Shown here: positions 7,347 through 41,680 of the stretch, one piece after another
Layout of the letters: the number at the start of each line of letters is the position of its first letter
How positions within the stretch are numbered: the stretch's first letter is position 1
NCBI GenBank assembly: GCA_020055645.1
Contig: CM034546.1
Span: 48,918,001-48,982,000, forward strand
Origin: Tomocerus qinae
Taxonomy: Eukaryota; Arthropoda; Collembola; Entomobryomorpha; Tomoceridae
Reading direction: 5' to 3'
DNA: 64,000 bases
Notes under the pieces: generated by a model
Told to the model about the DNA's origin: nothing
What the model saw: only the letters and a program-made list of their open reading frames with translations
Database searches by the model: none
Translations under genes and position numbers: made by a program

Positions 7347-7414
7347 AAGAAAAATCATTTTAATGCACTGCTTATTGCTTGAAGATAAAAAGCTAATAAA
7401 ATGCAGGGTGCTCT

Positions 7415-7633: not shown

Positions 7634-9102
7634 GAAGCGATGGTACTGAAAGCAGTTTTATTTTCTGCGTTAATATTAATAATGGTTGTGTTTGGACTTG
7701 TACAGTGCCGAGCATAACACATAATACATGGTTTATGATGTCGATCCCTCAAAATATTTTTGAACGTTAAAAAATTTCGAATGAGAAATAGAAAGAAGTT
7801 TGAATACTTAATCATAATCATAACTAATATTATTATTTAAGTAAAATTTAAAAAAACTCAATTGTAAAGTGTCATCGAAAAAGGTATGTAATAGATCAAG
7901 TGAAATTAAGAGAACCTAGAATAGTGAAAAGTGCAACATATTTAAAATTAAATGTAATCAATTTACTATAATTACTGAAATTACTAATATTAACATAGGT
8001 AACAATATTTTGAATTCATATTAAATTATTATGTCTAACTAAAATTAACTTTGTGTATGTAGACGTTCGTCTGAGAAACACAATAAAGTAATACAATACA
8101 ATACTTAATCATAACCATAACTACTTTTCAGCAACATGAGACATTCACATATTATAAGCATAATAATGCATAGAATGACCATCAAATATTAAGCGATACT
8201 AATGGAGCCATAAATTCTAAGCCAGGAACAAAAATGGTTTTAAATATAAATTAAAGTAAATGGGGCACACCCAAAAATTTCATTTTTGGTTTTTGATGCT
8301 AAGTAGCTATGAATGTCAGCAGGGTACAATCTGTTATATAGTTAAGCTACTTCCTATTGTAATTAAAGTACTTAGTGTGAATGTACATAACCCAATCTGG
8401 CGCCAAAACTGTCAATTTCATTCACTGACTGCTAATTATGTTTTGGTACCGACCTACCTTGGCTATATATGTAAATAGCAAACAAAAAACTAGTATTTCA
8501 TTATTTGTTCGGTTGCTAAAAAGTAAGTTTGGATATCATTAGCTCATTTCGTATTCTAATCTAAAAACACAACAATCAAAACTGTATTGAAACACATACA
8601 ATTGCAAAATGGTGCTAAATACTTGGAATTCCTATTTTGAATAGTATTGTAACATACATAAGCTCCCTATCATCAGTGTAATAAATTGTTTCATAAGTAT
8701 ATAGGGCCTTTCAATTAACACAAAAGCTCGAAGAACATAATAGTGGTCCAAATACGAAAATTAGTTAGAAAGTAAAGCGTGTCTTTAATTTTTATCCAAA
8801 AGTTTCAATCATCAATAAAGATAATATTATTATGTAGCATGAGGAATATTATTTAATAACATTGTACGTATATTGTATGTAAAATTTTTGGAACAATGTA
8901 AACAAGGTATTTACACGTGAAGCCCATGGTATTAGAGAGTGGGTCGGGTCTATTCAACTCTGATCGAATTTTGTTTAGTTGAGTTCATTCAATAACATAC
9001 TAAGTTTAAGGCCAAGTCCCTGTCATTGAATAACCTTAGCATACGAAGATATAAATTGTCAACTATTCCTGAAACTACTACAGAAGAATTTCTATCTTCA
9101 AA
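7634..9102. other. Spacer between IR genes 2 and 3
   Basis: Homology to the tandem unit continues to about 7770, then the sequence is unique and AT-rich. No gene is supported. A few open frames of 60-95 codons have neither start context nor paralogues. Confidence 0.65.
9003..9018 (+). promoter_or_regulatory. Conserved proximal promoter block of IR gene 3
   Basis: AGTTTAAGGCCAAGTC is identical to the gene 1 block and lies 100 bp before the ATG. A possible TATA-like stretch (gatataaat) follows at about 9046. Confidence 0.5.
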
Positions 9103-12100
9103 ATGAGCAGATTGCTTCACAGTTCCCTAACGTTGATATTTACAGCACTTCAAGTTTATCCATCAATAAAATGTGAATTTAATGCGGGTAAATTAAGTCT
9201 ACTTGAGTTGACATCAGACTGTCTAGTGAGATTTGTTGGGGAATTCAATAAATATCAATGGAAAATTAGTCTGCAAAATTATTTTGAGTTGTACTCTCTG
9301 CATTCCCAATTAACTCCGTTCATTATAGACAATCCATTGAAGCAGTTAAATAGACGCTACAGCAACCAAGTTAAATTAAATATTTCTGAAGACCAATACC
9401 CAAAAAATGTGTTTAGAAACTCGAAATTTTCTCCGTGCTTCGCACAAATTTATTTTGTTAATAGCAGTAATATTAAAAATGTTGTGATACAATTTGAAGA
9501 CATGAATTCTTTAGTGTATGCCAATGAAGATCCAACTTTTGTATTTTTTGTGTATGCAGAAATTAAAAGAAATTCTGTTCAGCAATTTATGCATAACCAA
9601 TATGTTGAATTTTTGTACACTAATATTAATTCAATGAAAATAACTAGTATTTACTTCCATGTTGACCGGGAATTACAATTGATATGTACGAAACCCAAAA
9701 AAGCATGTAACAGTAAAATGTATTTTTCTTTGCATGAAAGCGGTCTATCTATTGCTTCAGTTCGTTCATTATGGAAGACAGTTCACAAAAATCAACTTGG
9801 AGGAGTTGTGGATGATGGATTGCCATTTACACCAGGAATTGTAGCATTAAGGAAATCTTTGCGGACGTGTAGCGTATATGAGACGGGATTATATCTTCCT
9901 GGAAAGGAAATGTGTACTCTTCATATTTTGAGCAAAGTTTTCAACTACAGTATTATTGAGTCATCTTGTCAATTGAAAAACTCTTTAGACATAGTAGCGC
10001 ACATCAATAGCAGAATATTTGCAAATGCAATGAGTAACTCAGTTTTTCTAAGCCGACGATCTGGGTAAGTTTTTATACGATACTAGTGATCCCAGCTAAG
10101 GGGCAAACCTAGCAGTTAAGAGAGATTCAACAGGCCTCCCAAAGCAGTAATGTAAACAATTTTGAAAAGATCCCTTAGGTTATTATGTTAACTTTGTTAA
10201 CTTTTTTAAATATGCAAAGTATATTTAAATTAATACTTTTATTTCTACAGGGGTTGGAAAATATAGCTGCAGCCCCAACTTTCTGCTATAAAAGAATTTC
10301 CTAAACCAAAATAATAACGATAGATCGTAGCATAAAATACAGGGAACAATTGAAGAGCATTTTTGAAAAAAACCACACTAAAAAGCTTTTTTTTAATCGG
10401 AAAAATAAGATTCCTCCAGGGATTTTGAAAAAAACGTACAAATTCTATGAGTACAACTATATACTCAAAAGTGTTGCAGTCAGCACTTGGGTTACATATC
10501 GTCTGCTTAACATTACAAGGTAACAAATGATGTGGTTTGTTACCTTGTCGCTGCCATGATAAAATGGTTTGTTACTTTGTAGCAGCCATGATAAAATGGC
10601 TTGTTACCTTGTAATATTAAGCAGACGATATGTGGAAGTTGGGTTTTGCGTTACGTGATATATGCAGGTTTCCTAAGCTCTCCTCCAAGACAAATATAGA
10701 TAGATCGGTAATTATTTCCAAGTCTGCGATTATATTATAGATGATAGTATACTCGGCTGAAAAAATCAAGCCGAAAAGTATAAACGTGCTAAAATATGTT
10801 TTCTCATTATGAGGGATTGATTAAAGTTGATTTTACAAAAAAATCGTATAAAACAACCAAACAGAATAAAATTTAAATTTTAAATCTTTAAGGATTTTAA
10901 ATCTTGTATTTCCCATCGTTTAGAAGCATAAAGTATAGTATCTGCTTATTTTAGCCGGTTACAACAAAGTTTGCCAGCCATTTGGCAAATCTTTTGGCGA
11001 AAACCCTGCTAGTATTATAAAAGCTTTCAAATAAATGGATAAAAATCAAATAATTAAATTTGCTTACAATATTTTTTGGTTTGTTTAGTGAAAGACATGT
11101 ATGGCTGTCAGCAGCGGAAACATTTTCTTGCTTTCGCTCATTGGTCATCACAGAAAATTCAGGACACAATGTAAATGCTCTACAGTCTCCACTTTCCAAT
11201 GACACTTGGCTTGGGATATATATCAGTCTCTTAGTGACGTTGATAATTATCAAACTTTTTCATACCTGGACAAAATGTACAAGAAATGGAATCAGGGACT
11301 GGGAATCTTTTATTTCTACGTTTGTCAGTTATGAACATGGAACTTTTGGAGTTGCGTTATTTGAACTGCTGACTGTATATTTAGAGCAAAGTCATAGCAG
11401 AGCTATAGTTCATCATTCAAGAGCATACAATTCAAATCAGACAATGATTGTTTATTGTGTGTGGATAATGACAGCTATTGTTTTAACGGGTGCCTACAAA
11501 GGGAAGTTGTTCTCATTTCTAACGAAAGGCACAGAGATCAACGTTCCTAAAAAAATTGAAGAAATAACAAATGGTCCATACCCGATTTTTACTTCGTCTT
11601 CATATGCGAATGTCACTGACACTCAAATGTCTATGTTGAAAGATGGGATCCTTCCAGAAATGATTAGCGGTCCCCACCCGAAATATTATGAACATCTACA
11701 GAAGATTTTAATTTTTCTCAAAGGTTCCCAGCCTGTAGATTTGGCTGTAGCAACAATCTTCAACCAAAAAATAATGGGAAATAGCGAAAATTTGACTTTA
11801 CCCAAAATTTTTGTTTTTCTGGGTGAGGAGGAAGAGATATCCACTTTACAGTCGGCATTTCTTGCTTTTTCTGAAGACCACGAAACATTCGTGGGTTCTG
11901 ATATCAATACATTTCTTACGAGAGTACCATGGCAAATGAATAGAGGATATTTCTCACGGTCGTTTCGTACTATGCTTTCTTATCTTTACGAGTCGGGAAT
12001 TTACAACAGATGGAAAAATCTTAATAGCAGGAATAACATTCTGCTTGATATGGCAAAAGTTTACTTAAAAGTAAAGACAGAGCTATTAAAATCAATTCCC

Positions 12101-12340
12101 AACGCCATTTCAATGATGTCTGTTCTAATTCAGGAAAATGCTAAAAAGAAATTTAGGAAAATTTCTTCTATATCTATTGATGTGCTTTATCCTGTGCTGG
12201 CTATATTCCTCATTGGAATTGTACTCTGTGTACTCATTTTTATTTGTGAACGCACAATTAATTGGGCAACAAGATCGTATTATGATGGATTTTCTTTAGT
12301 TAATAATACATCAAATGCAGTTACAAGTTTCATACCTTAG
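9103..12340 (+). CDS. Divergent ionotropic receptor (IR), copy 3
   Basis: Third and most diverged member of the array. Exon 1 is 9103-10064, the intron is 10065-11088 (1024 bp, GTAAGT donor, GTTTAG acceptor, phase 2 as in copies 1 and 2) and exon 2 is 11089-12340, giving 737 residues. The ATG begins a signal peptide ending IKC. The exon 1 extracellular domain has drifted most. The start of exon 2 (ERHVWLSAAETFSCFRSL), the pore region and M3 (GAYKGKLFSFLT) are nearly unchanged. M4 lies at VLYPVLAIFLIGIVLCV. The intron is about ten times longer than in the sister genes because it holds repeat insertions. A possible polyadenylation signal is at 12520-12525. Confidence 0.87.
10074..10458. repeat. 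Dispersed repeat copy in the IR gene 3 intron
   Basis: Diverged copy of a repeat also seen at 56686-56963. Shared blocks include ACTAGTGA(A/T)CCCAGCTAAGG at the left and GGAAAAATAAGATTCC toward the right. The opening block recurs at about 25590. The family is unknown; no ends or target duplication could be fixed. Confidence 0.55.
10494..10633. repeat. 140-bp foldback (MITE-like) in the IR gene 3 intron
   Basis: The outer 34 bp on each side (beginning acatatcgtctgcttaa) form an almost perfect inverted repeat. Between them lies the motif ggtttgttac(c/t)ttgt repeated with the phrase gccatgataaaatgg. It is absent from the introns of the two sister genes. Confidence 0.65.
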
Positions 12341-14854: not shown

Positions 14855-16595
14855 TTATTTTAATTTAGAGTAGAAATTGAACAACGACTCGTTGTTGCTG
14901 TTGTATTCATATTGCTTTATTGAGTCATAGTCGTATTCCTCCGAAGCCAAAAATTTTGGTGCATTGGGTCCTGTATAATCTGTTACACTTTCAAAATACT
15001 TATTATCCCAGAATTTTTCAAGTGAACAGTATTTTTCAATATGAGTAATTGCAAAATAAATGTAAATTAAAGGAAATAATACGGCACTACAAATGTTCAT
15101 GACTCCAATATACCAAATAATTTTTCTCATTTTTAAAATTACTGTTATTCTTTCGCCAAAATTAACTACATACTTCCTGCACATACCTAATTTTCTAACG
15201 AAGTTTCTACCAACTCTTATATTTTCGGCCTCATGGATATACTTTCTGCAATACTGCTGATAATGGTCCTCTACATCGCCAACACTCGGAATCATTTCAA
15301 AATCTTTATTTTGTTTATCGTGAGGGGTTTCTATGGCTTCCTTCTGGCACCAAAGGAGTGCCCGATTTGCTACAATCCCCACCATTGCAGAAATTACAAA
15401 TCCGACAGAGGTAAATGTCCAATTATCCGAAGCTTTATATATGGGACTTTTTGGAATATATTGATTCAAACCCTGAATGACAGTGACCATAGTCAGAAGA
15501 AGAGTGACAACAAGACCTAATCTCATTTGCACATCCGAGTATGAGTTTCCCAGGAGAAATGACAACCAGCAAACAAATACAAGTAGAGAAATTGGCAAGT
15601 AGATAGTGTAGATATAGTAGCCATGCTTTCTTCTCAGTTTCCATGATATTTTTTTGCTAGTCCGAACGTCATTATAATTTTCATATTCATCCTCTCTTGT
15701 ATCATGTATTGTCATATCTTCCAAGTAGTAATCATTTATATTAATCGCGACAATATCCCCTGGACCTGATTTATAATTAATTAAATTCGGAAAATCGGAT
15801 CTGTGGTAATTTTGGATGAAGAAACTGAAGTCGAGTTTGCATTCCATTGTGTCAAAGGGGAAAGCGGTGAAATCCTTTATGCAATCCAATTTTACTTTTA
15901 CAGGTTCTAACGCAATATATGAGAAGTGTTGCTCTGAATTTGAAGATAGTACCAGTGTACAGAGAACGGGGTTGTCTTCTATCGTGGCAACCTCGAATTC
16001 GAAATTGAAAGTTGGACATTTCACTTCGTGTTTCTTAATATCCCCTTTGAACCTAATTAGTTGAAAAGGAATCTCAGGATTTAGTGGGATTTTTGTGTTG
16101 CTATAAATGTAAATAGCGATTTTAATTTTGGCTGTCGGGGAGTTGAATCCTTCCGTCATTTCTTCTTCTAAAAATTCCATTAATTTCACATTAAGTAGTA
16201 TGTTCACGTCATGGACGATTGTAGGTGATACGTGCTCGTGTCTAAACCAGTCTATTATTTCACTAGCTAAATTAACTGTTTTCTCTTTTAGCCTGGTCAT
16301 TTTGATGTCCAGAGCATCCCATTCGGTTCCAAACAATATTTCACCGCGATCGGATAAAGACTTGCTATGATTGGCGAAAAGATCCTGACGATTGGAAACA
16401 AGATACTATAAGTAAATAATAATACAACTTTTAAAAACAAGTTTCAAAAATTTTAATACGTACCCATTCCGCGTTAATTTCAGAAATGTTTGAGAGAAGA
16501 ATAGGGCTCATATCATTTACTCCATCCGTTAAATATCGTACTGGGTTTGAATTTATGGAAACTAAGAACACAGTAAGTAAGAGTGGAATTTTCAT
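14855..16595 (-). CDS. Cys-loop ligand-gated ion channel subunit, gene A
   Basis: Predicted subunit of a pentameric plasma-membrane channel. Exon 1 is 16595-16464 (44 residues, signal peptide starting MKIPLLLTVF). The phase-0 intron runs from a GTACGT donor to a TCGTCAG acceptor, and exon 2 is 16384-14855, giving 553 residues in all. The signature cys-loop is C212-C226 with 13 residues between and FPFD inside. TM1 is about 302-323, TM2 about 332-352 (MRLGLVVTLLLTMVT: Arg 0', Gly 2', Leu 9'), TM3 about 366-388, then a cytoplasmic loop and TM4 about 467-490. The tail after TM4 (about 60 residues, Tyr/Asn rich) is longer than in genes B and D. A second conserved cysteine pair (about 167 and 186) precedes the cys-loop. 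The usual WxPD motif of the family is not visible. Ligand and ion selectivity are unknown. Confidence 0.88.
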
Positions 16596-20340: not shown

Positions 20341-22019
20341 TTAATCCCACTTCAAAAAGCTCGGTGCATTTGGTCCTGTATAATCTGTGATACTTTCAAA
20401 ATACTTATCATCCCAGAATTTTTCAAGTGAACAGTATTTTTCAATATGGGTAATTGCAAAATAAATGTAAATCAAAGGAAATAATATTGCAAAGCAAATG
20501 TTCATTACTCTAATGTACCAAATCATTTTCCTTCCTCTTAAAAGTCTTGCTATTCTTTCGCCAAAATTAACTACAGACTTCCTGCACAGACCGAATTTTC
20601 TAACGCAGTTTCTACCAACTCTTATATTTTCGGCCTCATGATTATATTTTCTAGGCAACTTCTGAAATTGATCCTCAATATCGCCTACATTCGGAATGAT
20701 TTCAATTTCCTTATTTTGGTTATCATGAGGGATTTCTGAGGTTTCCGGCTGGCACCAAAGGAGTGCCCGATTTGCCACAATCGCCACCATTGCAGAAATT
20801 ACAAATCCGACAGAAGTGAATGACCAATTATCCGAAGCCTTATACTTGGGACTTTTTGGAACATATTGATTCAAACCCTGAATGACAGTGACCATAGTCA
20901 GAAGAATAGTTACTACAAGACCTAATCTCATTTGCACATCAGAGTAAGAGTTTCCCAGGAGAAATGACAACCAGCAAACAAATACAAGTAGAGAAATTGG
21001 CAAGTAGATAGTGTAGATATAATAGCCATGCTTTCTTCTCAGTTTCCATGAGAATTGTTGTTCAGTGGAAACAGAGTCAGAAAAAGTTACATAATGACTA
21101 ATATTATATATTTTCATATCTTCTAAGTAGTAATCATTTATATTAATCGTTGCTTCAAACTTTTGGTTTAATTTAACATTAATGTAAAATAATTCATCCA
21201 GTGGTTGGTTTCCCTGGTAAAAATGTTTGACAGAGAAAGCGAAGCCGAGTTTGCATTCCATTGTGTCGAAAGGGAAAGCAATGAAATCCTTGGAACAATC
21301 CACTTTTATTTTTTCAGTCAGCAGACCAACACCTGAAATTGAACTTGAATTTGAATCCAGTTTCACAGTACATTGTAGGGGATGAATGCGCATCGCAGAT
21401 GATAACGTGTCGCCCTCAAAGAAGATATCGAAGGCTGGGCATTTCGCATAAAGGAGGTCTCCTTCAAACCTCATTAGATGAAAAGGAATGGCAGAATTTA
21501 AAGGTATTTCGTTGTAGCTAAAAATTCCAATGGAAATTTCAAATTTGGCTTTCGGAGAGTTGAATCCGTCCGTCATTTCTTCTTCTAAGAATTGCAGCAA
21601 TGAAATATCAAGATCTATGTTCACGTCACGGTCGACGATAGATATTTCGTACATATTTCCAAACCAATCTATAATTTCAGCTGTTAAATTAGCTGTTGTC
21701 TTTTTTAATTTTTTATTTTTGATTCCTAGAGATTTCCAATCTTTCTTGTCTGTTCCATTCCACGATTCGCGGCGATCGGATAAAGAATTGCTAAGATTGG
21801 CGTAAAAATCCTGACGATTTGCAAACAAGATATTATATTTATAAATAATACATACAACTTTAAAAAACTACTTTCAAAACTTTTAATACGTACCCATTCT
21901 GCGTTAACTTCAGAAATGTTGAAACGAAGAATTGGATCCAAATCTTCAACCGTAAAACATTGAACTGAGTTTGACTTAATGGAAAACAAGAAAAGAATGA
22001 GTACTAGTGGAATTTTCAT
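20341..22019 (-). CDS. Cys-loop ligand-gated ion channel subunit, gene B
   Basis: Exon 1 is 22019-21894 (42 residues, signal peptide MKIPLVLILF). The phase-0 intron is 21893-21811 (GTACGT donor, TCGTCAG acceptor) and exon 2 is 21810-20341, giving 531 residues. The cys-loop is C-SKDFIAFPFDTME-C. Four membrane segments follow in the usual order, with TM1-TM3 almost identical to gene A and TM4 near the C-terminus (MIWYIRVMNICFAILFPLIY). The TM3-TM4 loop keeps the long form with the acidic stretch NKEIEIIPNVGDIEDQF. The extracellular domain is clearly different from that of gene A, and the spacing of the extra cysteine pair is 22 residues against 18 in A. All family features are intact, so it is likely functional. 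Ligand unknown. Confidence 0.88.
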
Positions 22020-22140: not shown

Positions 22141-22819
22141 TGAATAGCACCCGGAAATGAGATCATGCAGTTATTAAACTACATGCAATGTTTTTATTAG
22201 CTACATGTTCACCTGAGAAGTAACTAACTGTCTCGAGGCATGACATTTTAAATGAATTTGGTTTTCTATCCGGAAGTATCAAAAAATACTCCCATTTGGC
22301 GAAATAATTAAATTTTGGTTAAATTATTGTTGCCCTTTTCTGATCTGAGTTACTGTTTTGAAACGCGGAAAAGTAATTAATCATTTGAGGATATTATGTT
22401 GGCAAAACTAAATTATTTTATGTATGCAAAAAGCAGGGAAAGTTAAGCTCTGGGATTTTTGGCTGCGATTTGGGGATATTTAGACGCATAGGGATTTACA
22501 TTTTATGCACGAAGTTTACTCTGTAAAATACTAAAAATAATCAATGAAATTGGTTTTACAAAATTATTGTTTAGAAATCACATAATAAATTTTCATTAGA
22601 CATTACACTAGTAATACCATTCATTATAAAAGGTATGGTTAACTTGTTATATTATTATAATCATACTACCAACTACATATTTTATGCTTATCGACTCTTC
22701 TATCTCTGTAAATTAAAATGTCAAATCTGTTTTGAGTATACAGCGGAATATTTATTGTGTATATGCGTATGAATACTCTCTAAGAAATAGTACTGAATTA
22801 ACTATTACTATAAAATAAT
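22141..22819. other. Intergenic DNA upstream of gene B
   Basis: No gene. Aligns with the other array flanks. It is split from its continuation (26884 onward) by the Foldback element. Confidence 0.6.
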
Positions 22820-23842
22820 GGGTACTAGAAATTAGCTTACGCCGAATAGAAATTAGCACACGCCGAAGTGGAAAATAGCCGAAGCCGAAGTAAAATTTTA
22901 GCCCACGCCGAATAGAAGTTAGCCTACACCGAAGCATCTGCGCCTAAGCCGAAGGAAAATAGCCGAAGCCGAAGTGGAAAATAGCATAGCATAAGTTGGT
23001 TGAAATTGGCCAACGCCGAATGGAAAATAGCCGACGCCGAAGCAAAAGTGAAAAGTTGTCGGCGCCGAAGTAAAAATATACCTGCCGACGCCGAATAGAA
23101 CACAGCCGACGCCAAAATGGAAAATAGCCGAAGCCGAAGTGGAATTTAGCCGAAGCCGAATAGAAATTAGCCGACGCCGACGTGGAAATTGGCCGAAGCC
23201 GAAGTGGAAAATCACCGAAGCCTAAGTGGAAATTGGCATACGCCGATGCCTAAGCATAAATTGCAGAAGTTGGGGCGTAAATGTCACCGCCGACGCCGAA
23301 TAGAACACAGCCGACGCCAAAGTGGAAAATAGCCAAAGCCGAAATGGAATTTAGCCGAAGCCGAATAGAATTTAGCCGACGCCGACGTGGAAATTAGCCG
23401 AAGCCGAAGTGGAAAATCACCGAAGCCGAAATAATATATCTGTGATCCTACAAAATCATATGTAATGTCAGTATTTAAGATGTCAGGATGGTATTTTTGC
23501 ATCTATATATGCATGTAGTATGCATGTATGCATGGCTGTATATATGTAGTATGCATGTATCCATGGTTGTGTATATGTAGTATCTATGTATGAATGGCTG
23601 TATATGTGTAGCATGTATGAATGCATTACTTATATATAACCACCGTTATAGATAAAGCAGTAAATTTACCTACCTATGTATGTATCTATATGTGGTAAGT
23701 GGTAGGTCGAATTCAGGCACGTATCCAGACTTTGGTCAAGTGGGGGCGCCATAAATGGTTATGCAAGAGCTGCTTTGGAGGGTTGCTGCTCGCCCCTCCG
23801 CCTCCTCTACTGGATACGTGCTAGAGGGAGCTAGGATGTCCA
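22820..23842 (+). repeat. Left inverted repeat of the Foldback element
   Basis: Outer GCCGAAGCCGAAGTGG-type array about 22830-23440, inner 31-bp array about 23500-23640, then unique sequence ending GAGCTAGGATGTCCA. Open frames here are products of the repeat periodicity. Confidence 0.9.
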
Positions 23843-24256
23843 GATTACCTTCCTTGCAAAATCGAGATTTTAATCTGTCTTTGCAAAAATTCCGCAATGA
23901 ATGTTATTCTTCTTTGAGGGTCACTTTCCTGAAGAAGGTGTTCTTATTTTTACATTTTAAAAAATTTGGAATTTACTCAAAATCGCACGCTCTTTTTGAT
24001 GCCGTTAATTTCGTTGACCTGAACCCAATAATTCAAACGTCATTAAAGATCAAAGGGGCATTTAGTCATTTCTGGGAGAGCGAATTCACCTCTTTTCGTC
24101 GAATGAACTTTTTACCAAGTAATAAATTTTTGTTAGTATTCATTGTAGCCAATTTCTAAGTTTTCGCTTGGTCTTTCGAATGGTGTATATCTCGTTAGAA
24201 TATGAATGCTCAACCTGAATAAGGGTGTATCTTGGAATAATACTAGGCATTTATTT

Positions 24257-25297
24257 TTTAGCTCGTCTGAATAAGGCAGCTTATAGAACCGCACAGTCCG
24301 TTAGTGAACACGATAACTTTCGAACGCATTAATAGATTTTGACCAAACTTGGCGAAAACAATGCCTATGGACCACTGACAACCCCTATTGAAAATAGGCC
24401 ACATTGGTCCACTGATTACCAAGATACCGCGCGTTCACTTTGTCTTCATTTTGATAGTCAAAGTAGAAAATGAGCATTAAAAATTTCAATTGCGTTTCCC
24501 ATTAATTGTTAGCATATAGTATAAAATATTTCATACCGCTTCTAACGGACTTTAGAATTTTCTTGACTGTCATTATTAAATGAATTTTCCTCATCGTTTT
24601 GTTCAAATTCAACAGAGTGTGTTTCTACAGGGTCACATTCACGTTTTTCACTCTCCTTTTCTTGAGAAAATTTCAGGTAATCTATGTTTAGAAAAAGATT
24701 GTTTAATCAATTCATTATATCAAACATATAAAACTACATTAAGTCCAAACTATAGACGAAACAAAATAATATTAACATAATGGTATTTGAGCTTGTGGAT
24801 TCCTAAACTTCTACAGAAATGGAAAACTGATTCCTCCTGAGGCTTTTGCAAGAATAATATTACTTTTATGATTGGGAATGTATGAAGTAAAATGAAAATT
24901 TTTATTTATTTTATTACTTTCAACTTTTGACCAACCTTAGGTGTTTCATTTCCTTCGGATGTCGTCATTTTTTCTTTATATTATTTTGTCTGTTAAAAAA
25001 AAGAAAGATAATGATCCTCCCTGCTGATGAAATGCAGTTCGTTGTAAACGTTAATGTGTTTGCAATTGCGCCACTTTCAGCACAAGCATTGAAGAACCAA
25101 CCTGACTGCACCGTAGCGACCTGTGAAAATGTTCACAGGTCGCTACGGTGCACGGTTGTACGGTTGTCAGGGGTCCATAGGCATTGTTTTCGCCAAGTTT
25201 GGTCAAAATCTATTAATGGGTTCGAAAGTTATCGTGTTCACGGACGGACGGACGGACTGTGCGGTTCTATAAGCTGCCTTATTCAGGCGAGCTAAAA
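24257..25297. repeat. Nested inverted repeat pair in the Foldback core
   Basis: 24257-24381 and 25164-25297 are inverted copies, with slight differences. They include a GACGGACGGACGG run in the right copy and GAATAAGGCAGCTTATAGAACCGCACAGTC in both orientations, given here in shortened form: the left copy starts at AGCTCGTCTGAATAAGGC. The pair may be an older foldback captured by the element. Confidence 0.6.
25107..25152. repeat. Perfect 21-bp hairpin in the Foldback core
   Basis: A 21-bp arm (25107-25127) whose first bases are TGCACCGTAGCGACC is followed by the 4-base loop AATG and the exact complement (25132-25152). It is GC-rich against an AT-rich background. Confidence 0.8.
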
Positions 25298-25851
25298 TGG
25301 CGGGGTACCAACCCTCCTTCTGCCGAGAGGAGGGTAGATGGTAAGTACCCCACCTGTCCTGCCAGCGGTAGGGGCTGCAGCGTTCATAATGCGACCCTAA
25401 GAGTTATGTCAGTTCAACTATTGGTAAAATGTCGGATGTATTTTGTCAGATGTTGGGATTTTCAGATTATGATAATTCTCGTAACTATGGATTTTCAAAC
25501 ATTTAAAATCTTCTTTCTAACTTACACCGTTATTTGGGATATGCAATCATATGTTGAACCGTTTGGAAGTTATATATGTATATACATCCACTAGTGAACC
25601 CAGCAAAGGAAGGAACCTAGCACACAGATTAAATTGAAAATGCCACGTATAACCTTAATTACAAATGTTTATATAATATCTTACTCGAGCCTTGTAATTG
25701 TGCATGACTCGTATAATACTCTAAAACGAAACTTTAAATTCAACCACACCGTACCAACCATGCCCAAGGCACTAGCAAAACACTTTTCTATTTTCAAGCA
25801 ATCGAGAGTCGAGATTGCTGAAAATATTATGAAACATTTCCATTTGCTCTT

Positions 25852-26874
25852 TGGACATCCTAGCTCCCTCTAGCACGTATCCAGTAGAGGAGGCGGAGGG
25901 GCGAGCAGCAACCCTCCAAAGCAGCTCTTGCATAACCATTTATGGCGCCCCCACTTGACCAAAGTCTGGATACGTGCCTGAATTCGACCTACCACTTACC
26001 ACATATAGATACATACATAGGTAGGTAAATTTACTGCTTTATCTATAACGGTGGTTATATATAAGTAATGCATTCATACATGCTACACATATACAGCCAT
26101 TCATACATAGATACTACATATACACAACCATGGATACATGCATACTACATATATACAGCCATGCATACATGCATACTACATGCATATATAGATGCAAAAA
26201 TACCATCCTGACATCTTAAATACTGACATTACATATGATTTTGTAGGATCACAGATATATTATTTCGGCTTCGGTGATTTTCCACTTCGGCTTCGGCTAA
26301 TTTCCACGTCGGCGTCGGCTAAATTCTATTCGGCTTCGGCTAAATTCCATTTCGGCTTTGGCTATTTTCCACTTTGGCGTCGGCTGTGTTCTATTCGGCG
26401 TCGGCGGTGACATTTACGCCCCAACTTCTGCAATTTATGCTTAGGCATCGGCGTATGCCAATTTCCACTTAGGCTTCGGTGATTTTCCACTTCGGCTTCG
26501 GCCAATTTCCACGTCGGCGTCGGCTAATTTCTATTCGGCTTCGGCTAAATTCCACTTCGGCTTCGGCTATTTTCCATTTTGGCGTCGGCTGTGTTCTATT
26601 CGGCGTCGGCAGGTATATTTTTACTTCGGCGCCGACAACTTTTCACTTTTGCTTCGGCGTCGGCTATTTTCCATTCGGCGTTGGCCAATTTCAACCAACT
26701 TATGCTATGCTATTTTCCACTTCGGCTTCGGCTATTTTCCTTCGGCTTAGGCGCAGATGCTTCGGTGTAGGCTAACTTCTATTCGGCGTGGGCTAAAATT
26801 TTACTTCGGCTTCGGCTATTTTCCACTTCGGCGTGTGCTAATTTCTATTCGGCGTAAGCTAATTTCTAGTACCC
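25852..26874 (-). repeat. Right inverted repeat of the Foldback element
   Basis: Mirror image of 22820-23842. It contains the same module order read inward from the end. Confidence 0.9.
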
Positions 26875-26883
26875 TAAAATAAT

Positions 26884-28621: not shown

Positions 28622-30121
28622 TTATTTATCATCCCAGAACTTTTCAAGTGAACAGTATTTTTCAATATGGGCAATTGCAAAATAAATGTACAACAAAGGA
28701 AATAATACTGCAAAGCAAATGTTCATGACTCTAATGTACCAAATCATTTTTCTTGCTCTTAAAAGTTTTGCTATCCTTTCGCCAAAATTAACAACATACT
28801 TCCTGCACAGACCGAATTTTCCAACGCAGTTTCTACCAACTCTTATATTTTCAACCTCATGATCGTGGGGGATTTCTATGGTTTCCGTGTGGCACCAAAG
28901 GAGTGCCCGAATTACTACAATCCCCACCATTGCAGAAATTACAAATCCAACAGAGGTGAATGACCAATTATCCGAAGCTTTATATTTGGAACTTTTTGGA
29001 ATATATTGATTCAAACCCTGAATGACAGTGACCATAGTCAGAAGAATTGTGACAACAAGACCTAATCTCATTTGCACATCCGAGTATGAGTTTCCCAGGA
29101 GAAATGACAACCAGCAAACAAATACAAGTAGAGAAATTGGCAAGTAGATAGTGTAAATATAGTAACCATGCTTTCTTCTCAGTTTCCATGTCAATTGTTG
29201 CAGAGTGCCATCAGACAATGCAAAACGTTTATCTATTTTCATATCCTCCAAGTAGTAGTCGTTTAAATTAATCGTCGTGGCATAGTTTTTGTTAACTTTA
29301 AAATTAATTCCATTCAGGCCAATGTCTCCTTTGTAGTAATCATTGACATGGAAGTAGAAGCTGAGTTTGCATTCCATTGTGTCGAAGGGGAAAGCAGTGA
29401 AATCCTTGGTACAATCCAATTTTATTTTTTCATACCGCAGACTAAGATATGTAATGTAAAACGTTGAATTTGGATACAGTGTGATCACACATTTTAGTGA
29501 TGGATCTGTGTCGTCAAAAAAGTTGATATTAAAGGCTGGACATTTGACATAATTGAGGTGTCCTTCGAATCTAATTAGATGAAGAGGAATGTCAGGATTT
29601 AGTGGGATTTTACTATTATATTTAAAAACGTTAATGATAATGTTAATTTTGGCTTTCGGGGAGTTGATTCCGTCCGCCATTTCTTCTTCTATGAATTGAT
29701 TTAAATCCACATGAAAATCTATGTTCACGTCGCGGTTGACAATGGGTAAGTTGAATTTCTTTCCAAACAATTCTATAATGTCAGCTGATAAATTAGCTGC
29801 TGTCTTGCCTAGTCTTTCTTTTTTGATTCCTAGAGATTTCCATTCTTTTTCGTCTGTTTCATTCCATGATTTGCGACGATCGGATAAAGATTTGCTAAGA
29901 TTGGCGTAACGATCCTGAAAATTTGGAAACAAGATACTATAATTATAAATAATATACAACTTTTAAAAACAACTTTCAAAACTTTTAATACATACCCATT
30001 CTGCGTTAAATTCAGAAATGTTGGAACGAAGAATTGGATCCAAATCTTCAGCCGTCAAACATAACACTGATTTTGAATTTATGGAAAACAAGAAAACAAT
30101 TAGTAAGAGTGGAGTTTTCAT
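28622..30121 (-). CDS. Cys-loop ligand-gated ion channel subunit, gene C (short tail)
   Basis: Exon 1 is 30121-29996 (42 residues, signal peptide MKTPLLLIVF). The phase-0 intron is 29995-29915 (GTATGT donor, TTTTCAG acceptor) and exon 2 is 29914-28622, giving 472 residues. The cys-loop is C-TKDFTAFPFDTME-C, and TM1-TM4 are all present. Two oddities are visible. The TM3-TM4 loop lacks the roughly 27 residues (NQNKEIEIIPNV...) found in A and B, a deletion shared with gene D. The frame also stops at FWDDK, where the sisters continue YFES(I/V)TDYTGPNAP, so about 20 residues after TM4 are missing. Both changes lie outside the ligand-binding and pore parts, so the protein could still work. It may equally be an early stage of decay. 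Confidence 0.82.
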
Positions 30122-32064: not shown

Positions 32065-35000
32065 TGTGTGTTAGTGGGAGAGTGTGTTCAATACTATTGA
32101 GTAGCAAAGACACACTACCGCTCAAGCCGCGAGGACTTACTTGCAGTTGCTCCCTGAACAGCTTTACTGTTCGGAGAAGCCACTCATTCGTCCTGCAGAC
32201 ATACAAAATGAAAGCAGAGACGACAAGGGCAACCCCGGTAACTCATCCACGTGAACGAGAAACTTACTCAGGTGCTTGAATCTCAACTCGCTCAAAGCTG
32301 GGCATTCAGCCACATGGTGGACCGACGTCTCGACGCTTATTGCACACAATGGGCAGAGCGGAGACGAATGATTCCCCAATAGATTCTGATGCTTGGCCAA
32401 GGAGGAGAAACCAGTAATTAAATGAGTGAAGACCCTGAGCGTTCTTCTACTCAAACTTGTGAAATATATGCTTTTGATGTGTGAAGGTGAAGGCAAGAAT
32501 AATTTTGTATTTTTACAATCCGTACGTTTTTTCCAATTTTGAATATTCAATTTGTTGAAATATTTTGAGATGACAGTTTTTGCACATTGTGCTGAAAGAG
32601 GCAGTATTGGTTCAGGACCAAAAACTTCCATTTTTGTGGACTCTTTCGCTAGTGAATCCGCCTCATCGTTTCCTATGATCCCAGTATGACTGGGAACCCA
32701 TTGAAGGGTAACGGATGCGTTATTGGAAAGTATATGCAAGGCTTTGAAGCATTCGAGAATCAAGGCCGACTGTGTGTAATTAGCCTCAAGAGCTTTTAGA
32801 GAACTGAGAGAATCACTGTAGATGACTACTTCATCTCTCCAGTTCAGATCAGTGATTCGTAAGATAACCATTAGAATAGCTACCAGTTCCGCTTGAAACA
32901 CAGTAGAATATTTTCCTAAGCATTGTTGTATGATGATGTGGCTGTCAGTGCTACGAACGATTGCAGCACATCCAGCGAAGTTGTCAATTTTTGACCCGTC
33001 AGTGTAACAGACCAGTCTTCGGTTTGAAGGTTGAAGAATGACAGGTTTTTCTGTGTCCAAAACTGTAAAATTCTTACCCATGAGGGCAGTTGAGGGAATT
33101 GAATCCATAGGAAATTCCAACTCAGGTAATTGTTTCAAAATATTTGTAATAAGATCAACGTGTGTTAATCTTTTAAGGCTCCCTCTCCCATGCCAATGAA
33201 GCCATTTACCAGTACAACGCAGTCGATGCGCTGTAGTAATAGCTGTTTTGGTAAGAAATAATTCTATAGGCTCAATACCTACTATACATTCTAATGCTGC
33301 AGAGGGTGAACTATGCATAGCACTAGTAGTCATAAGGCAGGCCAGTCGTTGAACACTGGCCAAAGCTGTCATTCTAGATTTGTTGTGAACAGCCGTTAGC
33401 CACGAACAAGCTGCATATGATAAAGCCGGTCTAACTACCGCTGTGTAAAGCCACAGTGTGATTTTTGGGGAAAGGCCCCATGTTTGGCCAACAGCTCTTT
33501 TGCATTGCATAAGAGCTGCTTTTGCCTTGGCGCTTTTAATATTACAGTGAGTGCACCAAGTCAGTCCATTGTCCAAATAGACACCCAGGTACCGAACATT
33601 TTTGACAAATGCAATGTCCTTACCCCTTAATCTAAGAGGTTTCATGTTGGGTTTTTTATGCCGTGTATGAAATATAATAATTTCTATCTTGTCAGGGTGG
33701 ATAGAAAGATCCCGCTGACTGCACCAATTTTCGATGATACTGAGGGCTCTTTGCCCCAGAGCTCTTATTGTAGCTTCGTCTATGCCAACCTGAAGAAGGC
33801 CAAGATCATCAGCATATGCTTGTCTATAGATAGAACTGACGTTGGAGAGCCTCTCCAGTAGTTCGTGAATGACTAGATTCCATAATAATGGCGAGAGCAC
33901 CCCCCCTTGAGGGCACCCTCGTTCCACATTAATGCATTGAATGGCGCTACCAACAGTAACGTTAACGCTACGATCTTTTAGCATTCGTTCTATCCAACGA
34001 ATAATGGTTACGTTTATTCCCTCTCTTTCCAGAGCCAGGTGAATCGTTTTGAAGGTGGCATGGCTAAAGGCCCCTTCGATATCCAAGAAGATGCCAAGAG
34101 CCATTTGATTATTCTTGAGGGCACATTCAGTACGAGCAATGTATTGATGAAGAGCTGCATCAGTGGAAATACCACGCAAATATGCAAACTGTCCTGCATC
34201 TTTCATTTTATTTTCAAGTTCTGGAGTTTTGATACTCCAGTCAATAAGACGTTCAAGTATTTTCATACAAGTCGAGATAAGTGATATTGGTCGCCACGAG
34301 TTAGCTCTTTGATAGCTACTCTTGCCTGGCTTTGGTATGAAGATTACTTTAGTTTGTCGCCATGCTATTGGAATATATCCAAAGTCGAGACTAGCCTTAA
34401 GAATATTACACAGATGAGGAGCTAATTCTCTCCTCGCCATTTGAAGCATGACTGGCATAATGCCATCGCAGCTGCCAGCTTTATATGGTCCAAAAGAACT
34501 AATAGCCCTTTGGACTTTTTCTAACGTGATTAACTCTGCAATAGAGCTATCAGCACAGATGCTATAATCAGGCGTAGAGTTAATTATTTGATGATCATTT
34601 GGAAAATGAATTTTCAGAAGGTAAATCAATGATTCATCCATGTCTGAAGTATAGCTACCATCAGCAGTTTCAATTGGACCTAGTGTCCTGCTTCTATCTT
34701 TAACGAGAATTTTAGCAAGCTTTGATGCTTGTTGAGCATCTTCAATCTCATTGCAAAAGGCTCTCCATGAGTCCCTTTTAGCTTTTCGTAAGGTGCTGTT
34801 GAAAAGCAAACGAATGTCTCTTAACTCTGATTTTGATTCTAAGGTTCTTTTAGATTTGAATTTCCTAAGAGCAACCTTTAATTTTTTCCTAAGACTAGTT
34901 AGATCTTGATTCCACCATGGAGCAAGTTTGCCACCACTCCTTATGGTCTTCATTGGGCAAGCTTTATGGAAGGCGTCAATAATGATTTTGTTGACCATAT

Positions 35001-35779
35001 TTACTTGTTCATCGAGTTGGTCAACTGTTGCAATTGGAGTACAGGCTAATTTAGTTATGCTTTTCTTGACTGTCCTACTATATAAGGACCAGTCGGCTTT
35101 TTTTGGATTTCTAAATTGAATTGGCTTTGGAGGCTTTATTTCTAGATCATAAGAAATATACATGTGATCTGAAAGAGTGATTTCGTTTTCAACTCTCCAA
35201 TTGCGGATATACTGTGACAGGTTTTCGGAACAGACCGTGATGTCTAGGACCTCCTCTCTTCCCATGCCATCACGAAAAGTTGGTTTATGCCCTTGATTAA
35301 GTATTTCAAGGTTAGAGCCTACTATGAAATCAAGTAGGGCTTCGCCTCGTGCATTAGTATTTGTGCTACCCCATACTGTGTTGTGGGCATTGACATCCCC
35401 AGCAAATAGTATGGGTAAAGAATTTTGGTTGCAAAAGTTGACCACCTTATCTACTTCTTTTGAAATGGGATTTTTTTCCTTGTCTGGTAAATATGCTGAT
35501 ATCAGAACGATGTCACCATCATCCATTTTGATTTTAATGGCAACCAAATCTCTGCTCCAAAAGGAGCAAAGAGGCCAGACTTCCAAATTATTTGATGTGA
35601 CAATGCATGCCCTTGGGTTTTCAGGACCCTCATATACATGTAGTTTTCCTTTTCGTGATAGGCCACAAACCTTTCCCTTGTAGGCATATGGCTCCTGAAT
35701 GCAAATGACAAAATTGTTCCCTAAAAGACGATTACTAATCAGAGCAGTTGCAGCTTTACAATGCTGCAGATTGGCCTGT
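32065..35779 (-). mobile_element. LINE (I/LOA-like group), 5'-truncated, inserted in the LTR
   Basis: A 3715-bp non-LTR element flanked by the 11-bp target duplication TAGTTAGGATG (32054-32064 and 35780-35790). The 5' end is cut inside the start of the endonuclease domain, so ORF1 and the 5' UTR are missing. The 3' end lies at 32065, about 100 bp past the ORF2 stop, and shows no long poly(A). Confidence 0.93.
32164..35778 (-). CDS. LINE ORF2: endonuclease, reverse transcriptase, RNase H
   Basis: The frame is open from the truncation point (35778) to the stop at 32164, about 1204 codons without interruption. The first internal start codon candidate lies at 35586. Domains in order: an apurinic-type endonuclease starting at NLQHCKAAT and IQEPY; a reverse transcriptase with the YADD catalytic motif near 33815; an RNase H with YTDGS near 32990, then YSDS and the SHTGIIGNDEAD motif; and a C-terminal CPLC...HH...C zinc motif near 32320. 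This domain set places it in the I/LOA part of the LINEs. R1 relatives share the endonuclease style but usually lack RNase H. The protein would copy LINE RNA into target DNA. Because of the 5' truncation the copy lacks its own promoter, although the frame has not decayed, which indicates a recent insertion. Confidence 0.9.
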   Translation of the reverse strand, partial: QANLQHCKAATALISNRLLGNNFVICIQEPYAYKGKVCGLSRKGKLHVYEGPENPRACIVTSNNLEVWPLCSFWSRDLVAIKIKMDDGDIVLISAYLPDKEKNPISKEVDKVVNFCNQNSLPILFAGDVNAHNTVWGSTNTNARGEALLDFIVGSNLEILNQGHKPTFRDGMGREEVLDITVCSENLSQYIRNWRVENEITLSDHMYISYDLEIKPPKPIQFRNPKKADWSLYSRTVKKSITKLACTPIATVDQLDEQVNMVNKIIIDAFHKACPMKTIRSGGKLAPWWNQDLTSLRKKLKVALRKFKSKRTLESKSELRDIRLLFNSTLRKAKRDSWRAFCNEIEDAQQASKLAKILVKDRSRTLGPIETADGSYTSDMDESLIYLLKIHFPNDHQIINSTPDYSICADSSIAELITLEKVQRAISSFGPYKAGSCDGIMPVMLQMARRELAPHLCNILKASLDFGYIPIAWRQTKVIFIPKPGKSSYQRANSWRPISLISTCMKILERLIDWSIKTPELENKMKDAGQFAYLRGISTDAALHQYIARTECALKNNQMALGIFLDIEGAFSHATFKTIHLALEREGINVTIIRWIERMLKDRSVNVTVGSAIQCINVERGCPQGGVLSPLLWNLVIHELLERLSNVSSIYRQAYADDLGLLQVGIDEATIRALGQRALSIIENWCSQRDLSIHPDKIEIIIFHTRHKKPNMKPLRLRGKDIAFVKNVRYLGVYLDNGLTWCTHCNIKSAKAKAALMQCKRAVGQTWGLSPKITLWLYTAVVRPALSYAACSWLTAVHNKSRMTALASVQRLACLMTTSAMHSSPSAALECIVGIEPIELFLTKTAITTAHRLRCTGKWLHWHGRGSLKRLTHVDLITNILKQLPELEFPMDSIPSTALMGKNFTVLDTEKPVILQPSNRRLVCYTDGSKIDNFAGCAAIVRSTDSHIIIQQCLGKYSTVFQAELVAILMVILRITDLNWRDEVVIYSDSLSSLKALEANYTQSALILECFKALHILSNNASVTLQWVPSHTGIIGNDEADSLAKESTKMEVFGPEPILPLSAQCAKTVISKYFNKLNIQNWKKRTDCKNTKLFLPSPSHIKSIYFTSLSRRTLRVFTHLITGFSSLAKHQNLLGNHSSPLCPLCAISVETSVHHVAECPALSELRFKHLSKFLVHVDELPGLPLSSLLSFCMSAGRMSGFSEQ

Positions 35780-38540: not shown

Positions 38541-41354
38541 TTAGAAAGGATATACTGAATCAGGTTTATCAAAGTACGGCTTAAGATTCATGGTGTTGTG
38601 AATACCCCTGTTTTCACCAGTAAATACATCGATTAACTCATAAGTTAAATTTGAAATTACTTTAGTAACACGATAGGGACCTATGAATCTAAAAGCAAAT
38701 TTTTTAACAAATTTTTTATCCTTATTTGACAAGTAATGAGTTCTAAGAAGTACTAAATCATTTAACTTGTAAGTAACAGGTTTGTGTTTCTTATTATAAT
38801 GGACGGCCTGAGATGCCTGTGCTTTTGTCATATTGGAAATAGCTATATCATAGACACGTTTTAACTTACTAATTAAATCATTCTTATATACAATACGTGA
38901 TTCTATGACTTCCTCACAATCATCTTCTAACCAATGATCTATGGGTAATTTTAGCTCTCTTCCAAATGTAAGCATAGCAGGACTAAACCCAGTCGTATCC
39001 GAAACAGCTGTACGTAACGCTAAAGCTACCATATTAAGATTTTCATCCCATTTGTTATGCTGTTTATGGATATAGGAGGAAAGAATTGCTCTAATGTTTC
39101 TATTTACTCTTTCTACAATATTACTCTGGGGGTGATAAGTTGTAGTGTACTTATGCTTAATTCCCCACGATTTGCACATGTCATCTAAGTCTTTAGATCT
39201 AAAATTAGTGGCATTATCAGACAGCAATGAGCTAGGAGCACCAAAGCGAGAGAAAATCTGATTCTGTAATACCTCTTTAACTTTGCTTGTTCGTGCATCA
39301 ACTAACGGAAAGAGTTCAACCCATTTCGTGAAATGGTCAACTACAACCAAAAGTTGAGTATTACGACGTGCAGTTCTCGGAAATGGCCCCATCATGTCAA
39401 TGGCAAGAAGCTCCCAAGGGCCTCTAGTAATTGTACTTTTCAGCTCACCCGCAGGTAACTGATTTGTTGATTTGACCGATTGACAGATGTGACATGAACG
39501 AACATATTGTAAAATATCTTCATGCATGCCAAACCAAAAGACCCTGCGTAAAATTTTAAGCAAAGTTTTACGATAACCTAAATGACCGGAACCCGGTGCA
39601 TCATGGAAATATTCCAAGATTACCTTGCGCAGGTTAGAAGGAATAAAAGGATAGTGAATTCCAAGTTTATTTAATCTACCAAATATACCATTTCTAACTT
39701 CAAAACCTTTCGGCATATCAGAAATGAGAGCTTGAACCTCTGCATCCGCCTTTTGAGCTTCACGCAAAGAGTCCAAAGTAACAGTAGGAGTAAACGTACA
39801 AAGAATAGGAATCGGAACTCTGGTTGGAGTAAACATCTCCTCTATGGATTCCTCTTCTTCTGGTTTACCTACTGGAGCTCTACTGAGTGCATCAGCAACC
39901 TTATTATGCCTACCTGGTATGTGTATTATTTGGGGTTGATACTCCTGTATTTGAAGTGCCCAACGCATGAATTTAGAATTAACTGCCTTCATTTTGTTGA
40001 GCCAAGTAAGAGCTTTATTATCAGTCTGTAACTCGAAAAGTTGACAATCCAAATACGTTTCGAACTTTCTCAAAGCCCAAACGATTGCCAAACATTCCTG
40101 TTCACAAGCATGATAATTCTGCTCTCCTGGACTAAGGGAACGAGACGCAAAAGCAATAGGTCTTTCCTTGCCATCCGCGGTACCTTGAGACAAGCATGCA
40201 CCCAAACCATATTTACACGCATCCGTTCTTAAGATAAAAGGACGAGAAAAATCAGGGAATGCTAATGTTGTAGCGTCACAAATCAATGTTCTAATTTTGT
40301 CAAAAGCTTCCTGCTGCTCTTTTCCCCAAACAAATTTTACTGATTTCTTTAACAATTTATTTAAATGAAATGTATGTTCAGCAAATGAGGGAATGAAATG
40401 ACGATACCAAGAGCAGAGACCTAGAAATCTTTTGACATCCTTAGGACGCCGAGGAGTTGGATAACTTTTTAAGGGCTCAATCTTCTCAGGATTGGTTTGC
40501 ACACCATCAGGAGTTATCACAAAGCCTAAGTATTTTACTGAGGTTTTACCAAAACTACACTTATCGACATTTGCCGTAAACCCAGCATCTGCTAATAGTT
40601 GAAAAACGGTCTCAAGATGCTCAATATGTTCCTGCCAAGTCTGAGAGTAAACCTTAATGTCATCTAAGTACGCATCCGCGAATTTACCACGACATGGAGC
40701 TAATACTTGATTCATGATTCGTTGAAAAGCACTGGTACCTAAACAAATTCCAAATGGTAATCTTGTGAAGTAGAATTTTCCAGCTTCACAGATGAAAGAA
40801 GTGTACTTCATAGAGTCAGGATGAAGTCTGATCTGCCAATATCCCTTCTTAAGATCAATAGTACTAATGTAATTAGCACTGCCTAGTCTATGGATCAATT
40901 CTTGAATATTTGGAGTTGGAAATGGATCCTTTGGGATACGACTATTCAACTTCCTATAATCTATGCAGAACCTAAAATCATCACCCTGTTTGCACAAGTT
41001 TACTGGAGAACACCATTCTGAATTTGAGGGTTTAATAATGCCTAGTTCGAGCATTTGATCAACGTGCTTTTGTATAGCTTCACGTTTGGCATGTGAGACA
41101 GGATAAGGTTTCTGAGCAATTGGAGGACCAGTTGGTGTGAACTCAATCTCAGCCACATTGGTCACTCCAATTTTACCAGAGAAGACTTGGGGAAAGGTTT
41201 TTATTAGTGTATCTAATTCTTGTTCTTGATTAGTGTTTAAACCTTGTAAAGCACAAAGAAAATTCTTATTATAAAGAGCAAAAGATTCCCTTGGTTTTTT
41301 CTTAAAAATAAAGGAACCCGAATCTGGATCAATTAACAAACTAGAAAATCTCAT
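38541..41354 (-). CDS. Pol region of the LTR element
   Basis: Long frame with the Ty3/Gypsy order: reverse transcriptase (YLDD), RNase H of the Gypsy type, then integrase with an HHCC zinc finger and DDE core. A protease motif (DTGSS) lies upstream near 41580. The domain order RT-RNase H-integrase separates it from Copia-type elements. The frame is long and open. Treated as a fossil. Confidence 0.88.
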   Translation of the reverse strand: MRFSSLLIDPDSGSFIFKKKPRESFALYNKNFLCALQGLNTNQEQELDTLIKTFPQVFSGKIGVTNVAEIEFTPTGPPIAQKPYPVSHAKREAIQKHVDQMLELGIIKPSNSEWCSPVNLCKQGDDFRFCIDYRKLNSRIPKDPFPTPNIQELIHRLGSANYISTIDLKKGYWQIRLHPDSMKYTSFICEAGKFYFTRLPFGICLGTSAFQRIMNQVLAPCRGKFADAYLDDIKVYSQTWQEHIEHLETVFQLLADAGFTANVDKCSFGKTSVKYLGFVITPDGVQTNPEKIEPLKSYPTPRRPKDVKRFLGLCSWYRHFIPSFAEHTFHLNKLLKKSVKFVWGKEQQEAFDKIRTLICDATTLAFPDFSRPFILRTDACKYGLGACLSQGTADGKERPIAFASRSLSPGEQNYHACEQECLAIVWALRKFETYLDCQLFELQTDNKALTWLNKMKAVNSKFMRWALQIQEYQPQIIHIPGRHNKVADALSRAPVGKPEEEESIEEMFTPTRVPIPILCTFTPTVTLDSLREAQKADAEVQALISDMPKGFEVRNGIFGRLNKLGIHYPFIPSNLRKVILEYFHDAPGSGHLGYRKTLLKILRRVFWFGMHEDILQYVRSCHICQSVKSTNQLPAGELKSTITRGPWELLAIDMMGPFPRTARRNTQLLVVVDHFTKWVELFPLVDARTSKVKEVLQNQIFSRFGAPSSLLSDNATNFRSKDLDDMCKSWGIKHKYTTTYHPQSNIVERVNRNIRAILSSYIHKQHNKWDENLNMVALALRTAVSDTTGFSPAMLTFGRELKLPIDHWLEDDCEEVIESRIVYKNDLISKLKRVYDIAISNMTKAQASQAVHYNKKHKPVTYKLNDLVLLRTHYLSNKDKKFVKKFAFRFIGPYRVTKVISNLTYELIDVFTGENRGIHNTMNLKPYFDKPDSVYPF

Positions 41355-41680
41355 GAAATCCCAACCTAAGACTATGGGGCATGGTAAATTCTTTAATACA
41401 TGAAAAGTGAAAGAGAAATTTCTACTAGCTAATTTAAATCGTAATTTAATGGAACCAAGAGTTTTTACTGTTGCTAAATTTGCTAAATTAACTTGATTAA
41501 TTAAGGAAGGTTCTAAATTAACTTTAAGGGAATTGAAAGTATTTTCATCAACAAAAGAATGGGAAGATCCCGTATCAAGTAAAGAAATAAAGCAATTGTC
41601 CGAAATATTTACAAGGACCTGAGGAATGTCTTTGGAAGCAAATAAGTGAGAAAGACTTGCTTCCGATTTGTCCTTCTCAA

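Follow-up and report, generated by a model that had tools for sequence, protein, structure and literature searches.

The identical arms of a Foldback-type transposon in Tomocerus qinae are probably a product of arm-to-arm copying

We analysed a window of 64,000 bp from the genome of Tomocerus qinae (G000:C1:48918001-48982000; genome of 334 Mb in 115 contigs, contig C1 being 140 Mb long), which holds a Foldback-type element of 4,055 bp at 22820-26874, set in repeated DNA between genes. Positions without a contig name are those of the window; contigs carry C numbers, and copies of the element and other loci carry L numbers. The element starts with GGGTACTAG and ends with CTAGTACCC, and its two arms are exact reverse complements of each other over 1,023 bp (0 mismatches), with 2,009 bp separating them (Table 1). 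From outside to inside each arm consists of an array of 21-22 bp units, delimited with Tandem Repeats Finder, an array of 31-bp units and 205 bp without tandem structure. The initial annotation had described a Foldback element with modular arms at this place, and its perfect 9-bp duplication, its ends and its mismatch-free arms of 1,023 bp were all recovered on the sequence; tandem-repeat analysis bore out the layering of the arms into two arrays and what had been called unique DNA. Long inverted arms with internal tandem repeats, the structural mark of Foldback elements, are therefore present, and the label is supported.

When the two flanks are joined, they align across the junction to three unoccupied paralogous stretches in the window, each with one copy of the target: 46077-46085 (TAAAATAAT), 56030-56038 (AAAAATAAT) and 63255-63263 (TATAATAAT). 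These are the empty sister flanks that had been proposed at 46.07, 56.03 and 63.25 kb. A fourth paralogue of the flank, at about 18.5 kb, gives no alignment around the junction and is uninformative. The mobility expected of a Foldback element is evident from the target duplication together with the empty sites.

Table 1. Positions in the window of the Foldback-type element, its parts and the repeats inside its spacer
Feature	Position	Strand	Remark
Left target-site duplication TAAAATAAT	22811-22819	+	Single copy at paralogous empty sites
Left arm, 1,023 bp	22820-23842	+	Exact reverse complement of right arm
Terminal 26-mer common to the family	22820-22845	+	107 places in the genome with up to 3 mismatches; control 0
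Outer 21-22 bp array, left arm	22841-23430	+	Mirrored at 26264-26866; array-like DNA in all 36 copies or parts (window copy among them)
31-bp array, left arm	23513-23637	+	Mirrored at 26057-26181; window 23438-23637 matched in 35 of 36 copies or parts
Innermost 205 bp of left arm, a dispersed repeat	23638-23842	+	In 1 of 36 copies or parts (the window copy), both arms
Spacer, 2,009 bp	23843-25851		Three frames of at least 120 amino acids without recognised transposase domain; partly other repeats
Part of inverted repeat of an unrelated element	23837-24204, resuming at 25549-25576		88-89% to L052 and L053
Insertion interrupting the L052/L053-type repeat	24205-25548		ATATG at both edges
Innermost 205 bp of right arm	25852-26056	-	Same dispersed repeat as in left arm
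Right arm, 1,023 bp	25852-26874	-	Exact reverse complement of left arm
Right target-site duplication TAAAATAAT	26875-26883	+	Read on the sequence

The element belongs to a family. Its terminal 26-mer was found, with up to 3 mismatches, at 107 places in the genome (54 forward, 53 reverse), and the reversed control gave 0. All analyses of ends use 100 listed ends out of these 107: 70 of them pair up as the ends of 35 copies, 351 to 13,498 bp long, and the other 30 are orphans, so that the family has at least 35 two-ended copies. The initial annotation would have given way if no other copy with such ends existed, which is not the case. The sequence set comprises 36 members, namely three one-ended stretches and 33 of the 35 two-ended copies, of which 32, among them the window copy, were read whole and one as two pieces; the two shortest two-ended copies (351 and 465 bp) lie outside it. 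Exact target duplications flank 26 of the 32 whole copies, 23 of them with 9 bp and 3 with 10 bp (L024, L036, L037), and a genome search with the arm end, as had been suggested, thus yielded further copies with 9-bp duplications. When flanks of different copies were paired as a control, 0 of 992 combinations matched over 9 bp, compared with 23 of the 32 true pairs. By eye, no fixed target motif was seen among the 23 exact sites. All 64 ends of the 32 copies begin with GGG, to be read with the fact that copies were retrieved by that end sequence.

As in other Foldback elements the middle varies between copies: among the 35 other copies or parts, three have matches to the window spacer (L010, L019, L045), in stretches of 59-355 bp, and shared middles occur in some other copies (L037 and L041; L018, L023, L028 and L035). 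Two-ended copies are concentrated on C1, which makes up 42% of the genome and holds 30 of the 35 (two-sided binomial p = 1.2e-7); the stretch of C1 from 86.5 to 124.7 Mb contains none of the 100 listed ends. The plain 17-mer of the end occurs at 74 places, including C1:32029329, also found in the 26-mer search, and C1:39597785. The latter (C1:39597785-39597801) is an exact 17-base family end outside the 100 listed 26-mer places and may be a diverged family end or a relative with another sub-terminal stretch. The search for short-armed relatives required 17 exact end bases.

We compared the outer 640 bp of both arms in the 29 two-ended copies longer than 2.5 kb, a set that excludes four shorter copies and the three one-ended stretches. 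The arms differ in 22 of these copies and are identical in 7, and in 16 of the 29 the two arms of a copy are each other's nearest relatives. The window copy has 0 differences in 640 bp and carries 16 private variants, all of which are in both arms and none in a single arm. Because substitutions strike one arm at a time, these variants would have been copied across the arms. L022 has 12 private variants common to both arms and none in one arm only. The innermost 205 bp were detected without mismatch in each arm of the window copy and in none of the 35 other copies or parts (blastn, E 1e-5); elsewhere in the genome they have at least 41 relatives of 77-89% identity (43 listed, two of them the window's own; the 40 best of 240 candidates were scored). 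That two separate insertions should have stopped at one and the same base in both arms is not credible, and the repeat is therefore taken to have been copied between the arms as well. Most likely one arm of the window copy was copied onto the other, either in this copy or in its source.

If one arm was copied onto the other, arm identity gives no insertion date. The initial annotation had read the identity as a sign of very recent movement or ongoing conversion between arms; the part on copying between arms agrees with the 16 variants and the 205 bp found in both arms, while the use of arm identity as a clock has to be given up. The window copy provides a clean case of this failure of the clock in a Foldback element, with the same dispersed repeat present in each of its arms. 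A simpler explanation does without copying: the source may already have had identical arms, and the element may have inserted very recently. We consider this quite unlikely: the exact duplication, the 0 mismatches in 1,023 bp and recent jumps in the same genome would agree with it, but the 16 private variants and the 205-bp repeat must have crossed between the arms all the same, in the copy or in its source. Collapse during assembly, likewise raised in the initial annotation, or polishing might have equalised the arms artificially. We give hardly any credence to such an artefact, which is unlikely as the sole cause given that arms differ in 22 of the 29 copies compared in this assembly; the spacer is moreover asymmetrical, and the exact duplication and the empty sites show an insertion.

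Arm length varies in the family from less than 1 kb to the whole element. L020 is inverted-repetitive over its full length of 3,914 bp (98.8%); in L035 and L023 the arms measure about 3.3 kb and 2.6 kb, respectively. The long arms of these three copies fit an inward growth by copying that ran past the existing arm. For Galileo, growth of the arms has been proposed to occur through copying of DNA beside one arm into the other (PMC3573991; this and the other papers cited here are drawn on in excerpt), and the inward growth so proposed is traceable across the copies of the present family. L020 (515-4428) has an exact 9-bp duplication.

Recent movement is best followed in the sister copies L037 on C1 and L041 on C2, which are in opposite orientation and differ by 19 mismatches in 4,691 aligned bases, with 30 gap columns. 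Their flanks show no similarity over 500 bp on each side, and each copy has its own duplication (10 and 9 bp, respectively). The two arms of L037 differ at 20 sites, and L041 keeps 18 of these differences. The element can therefore jump unchanged, equalising of the arms being a separate event, and transposition need not homogenise the arms, as judged from one pair. The opposite idea, that the arms are rebuilt from one arm at every transposition in the manner of a self-templating palindrome, would accommodate the 7 of 29 copies without a difference in the outer 640 bp as well as L020, palindromic throughout; as a general rule it is refuted by the single jump of L037/L041, and although it might apply to some jumps we hold it to be very unlikely. 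The failing clock of the window copy is thus accompanied by a sister pair whose jump kept the arm differences. The initial annotation had called the element young and its movement very recent. Recent movement of the family in this genome is supported by L037 and L041, not by the arms of the window copy, which do not serve to date that copy.

The spacer of the window copy is partly made up of other repeats. One component comes from the inverted repeat of a dispersed element, about 1.1-1.2 kb long (L052, L053; inverted ends of about 475 bp, with ACAGGGTGGCC near the outer edge), and is interrupted by an insertion in which an abundant repeat lies at about 24255-24560 and, inverted, at about 25162-25297. 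The 205-bp inner arm was considered as the middle of this inverted-repeat element and rejected, since the matches to L052 and L053 start no earlier than 23837. The three frames in the spacer of at least 120 amino acids gave no Pfam family above cut-off and one sub-threshold match (E 0.049), which we take to be chance. In the window, Rfam gave no match at gathering scores.

Coding content was scanned in frames of at least 150 amino acids in 32 copies and, after filtering for repetitiveness, of at least 100 amino acids in 15 copies or parts; most were assessed visually, and Pfam was run on a total of 20 frames or stretches, not all of which belong to the family. The longer frames were array translations, frames resembling long interspersed nuclear elements (LINEs; RVT_1 in L032 and L013) or unassigned. 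The 13.5-kb copy (L012+L013) contains LINE-like frames with reverse transcriptase and endonuclease domains. No family transposase was recognised in the 35 other copies or parts, with frames judged partly by eye, and queries with one protein of the Mutator-like element (MULE) type and one of the P type, both from the same genome, matched nothing well in the set of 36. The initial annotation had looked to copies with 9-bp duplications and a transposase between the arms to identify the driver; such duplications were found, and no transposase was recognised in the copies read.

We also set profile matches against the 100 listed ends within a distance of 15 kb, using PF10551 for MULEs (59 matches), PF04500 for FLYWCH (133), PF12762 for Merlin, IS1595-type (19), and PF21787 for P-type transposases (157, of which 137 positions were entered; the rows omitted were apparently second pieces beside entered ones, or lay on C7 and C28, which have no listed end). 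In these searches the best candidates were scored and counts are lower bounds; most of the 30 orphan ends, as well as C1:39597785, lie outside the sequence read. With most orphan ends unread, none of the 19 Merlin-type matches fell inward of a listed end within 15 kb, and 1 of the 137 P-type positions did, on C3, where an orphan end stands about 5.5 kb outward of it. This P-type gene was rejected as the driver: it is bounded by 31-bp inverted ends of its own, flanked on either side by ACTATAC (L049, L051), and no left family arm was found in the 16.9 kb read at the locus. The P-type transposon itself spans about 3.0 kb (C3:50014068-50017041), with the 7-bp ACTATAC next to it on either side, and has a frame that is THAP-like by eye as well as a TNP-like ribonuclease H frame; a third copy of the 31-bp end lies further left.

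P elements duplicate 8 bp of target DNA. The duplications of the present family, 9-10 bp long, lie outside the 7-8 bp of P and Galileo. That the family might be a Galileo-like member of the P superfamily could be argued from the long, internally repetitive arms that Galileo also has (PMC3573991), from the frequency of P-type matches (157) and from the one inward of the C3 end; against Galileo's 7 bp stand the longer duplications of the family, and against the C3 gene its own 31-bp inverted ends and the missing left arm, so that this assignment appears extremely improbable.

Further candidates were discarded. A MULE gene 6.5 kb outward of an end (L050) lies on the wrong side of that end; one FLYWCH match is also outward of an end, 5.1 kb away. 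An open frame of 122 amino acids in L045, MULE-like by eye, belongs to its own dispersed family and received no Pfam call. Some of its relatives adjoin PF10551 matches, and on C33 and on C1 at about 39.02-39.03 Mb a fragment related to this frame repeats mostly every 1.76-1.79 kb, like a satellite derived from a transposon piece. An autonomous relative, which the initial annotation thought might be active, was looked for and not found among the copies read and the listed ends; it may still exist.

We lean towards MULEs because the duplication is of 9 bp, the ends begin with GGG and the arms are long (PMC6446971, PMC13359780, PMC4079207, PMC3169594). According to excerpts of the literature, MULEs usually have duplications of 8-11 bp together with long arms (PMC6446971), G or C as the first three bases is usual in MULEs, not defining (PMC13359780), and Foldback elements are mostly thought to be MULEs (PMC4079207). 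The family agrees with these features, its duplications being of 9 bp in 23 and of 10 bp in 3 of 32 copies and its first three bases being GGG, and a driver of the MULE type is likely, although we stop short of classing the family as a MULE.

We consider it highly probable that the element is a non-autonomous cut-and-paste (class II) transposon of the Foldback type, probably Mutator-like, whose arms are sometimes equalised by arm-to-arm copying. A transposase supplied in trans would recognise the family ends, and the sub-terminal array perhaps offers it repeated binding sites. In some copies one arm would be copied onto the other, leaving the arms equalised and growing inwards, a process apparently absent from at least one jump (L037/L041). 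The window copy would be the clearest case, copying having carried the 205-bp stretch of dispersed repeat into both arms.

Several observations weigh against this reading. No coding copy was found, so that structure is the basis for assigning the element to class II and to the MULEs, and within 15 kb, with most orphan ends unread, 0 of 59 PF10551 and 0 of 133 PF04500 matches lie inside a listed end. Of the 32 whole copies, 6 have no exact duplication, three of them showing one mismatch (L034, L042, L044) and three no match (L030, L039, L045), and the 13.5-kb copy also has no matching duplication. Copying is not general, since in 13 of the 29 copies a copy's own arms are not nearest relatives, and in several copies, with and without this property (e.g. 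L011, L026, L032, L033, L036, L039, L045) private variants are mostly in one arm. Finally, the copying may have gone in either direction and may already have taken place in the source of the window copy. A driver outside the MULE, P and Merlin groups, or one escaping the profiles, is conceivable, combined with arms that act as a trap by copying adjacent DNA and so end as spacer-free palindromes such as L020; we regard this combination as unlikely.

The Foldback elements of Drosophila melanogaster (FB, FB-NOF) have long inverted arms of short tandem repeats, a 9-bp duplication and a variable middle. The present family is alike in these structural features of arm, duplication and middle, and differs from FB-NOF in that no NOF-like coding region was recognised in the family copies read. 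Excerpts of the report on Tm1 of Meloidogyne, a Mutator/Foldback element (PMC3169594), describe similarly composite arms with internal tandem repeats, duplications of 8-10 bp, mostly 9 bp, in 45 of 53 elements, and identical arms in 5 of 61. Two of the three Tm1 groups are given there as lacking a transposase, a transposase-coding type being known. Tm1 differs in its asymmetric 7-bp end motifs, its units of 13-15 bp and its coding type, whereas the ends of the present family are symmetric and no coding copy was found (PMC3169594). Tetris of Drosophila virilis is also close, as an apparently non-autonomous Foldback element with arms in domains and 8-10 bp duplications for which, in the excerpted account, no driver was found and the Mutator superfamily was suggested from duplication size; it differs in a unit of about 220 bp and has three structurally complete copies (PMC4079207). 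Galileo resembles the family in the internal arm repeats of one subfamily and in the 98-100% identity between arms of one copy, and differs in its 7-bp duplications and P-type transposase (PMC3573991). In text searches of the literature with a 16-mer and an 11-mer of the end and with CTAGTACCC, Repbase and Dfam being outside their scope, the matches listed (10 of 74 papers) were for CTAGTACCC only, in papers that by title look unrelated. As far as searched, the family is new by its sequence only; the kind of transposon is ordinary.

The window also contains two groups of tandem receptor-like genes. Five Cys-loop receptor-like genes are on the minus strand (14855-16405, 20341-21867, 28622-29962, 47774-49165 and 58874-60362), the first with PF02932 at cut-off and the other four recognised by likeness of their frames. 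Three ionotropic-receptor-like genes lie in tandem on the plus strand at 1294-12340, with PF00060 below cut-off for one scanned frame and the others assigned by likeness. On the minus strand, 32164-35778 holds a LINE-like stop-free frame of 1,204 amino acids and 38541-42733 a Gypsy-like pol frame, beside which lies a frame with sub-threshold Arc-like capsid matches. A tandem array of 25-bp units occupies 50954-51493, with 12.8 copies at 97% followed by diverged units.

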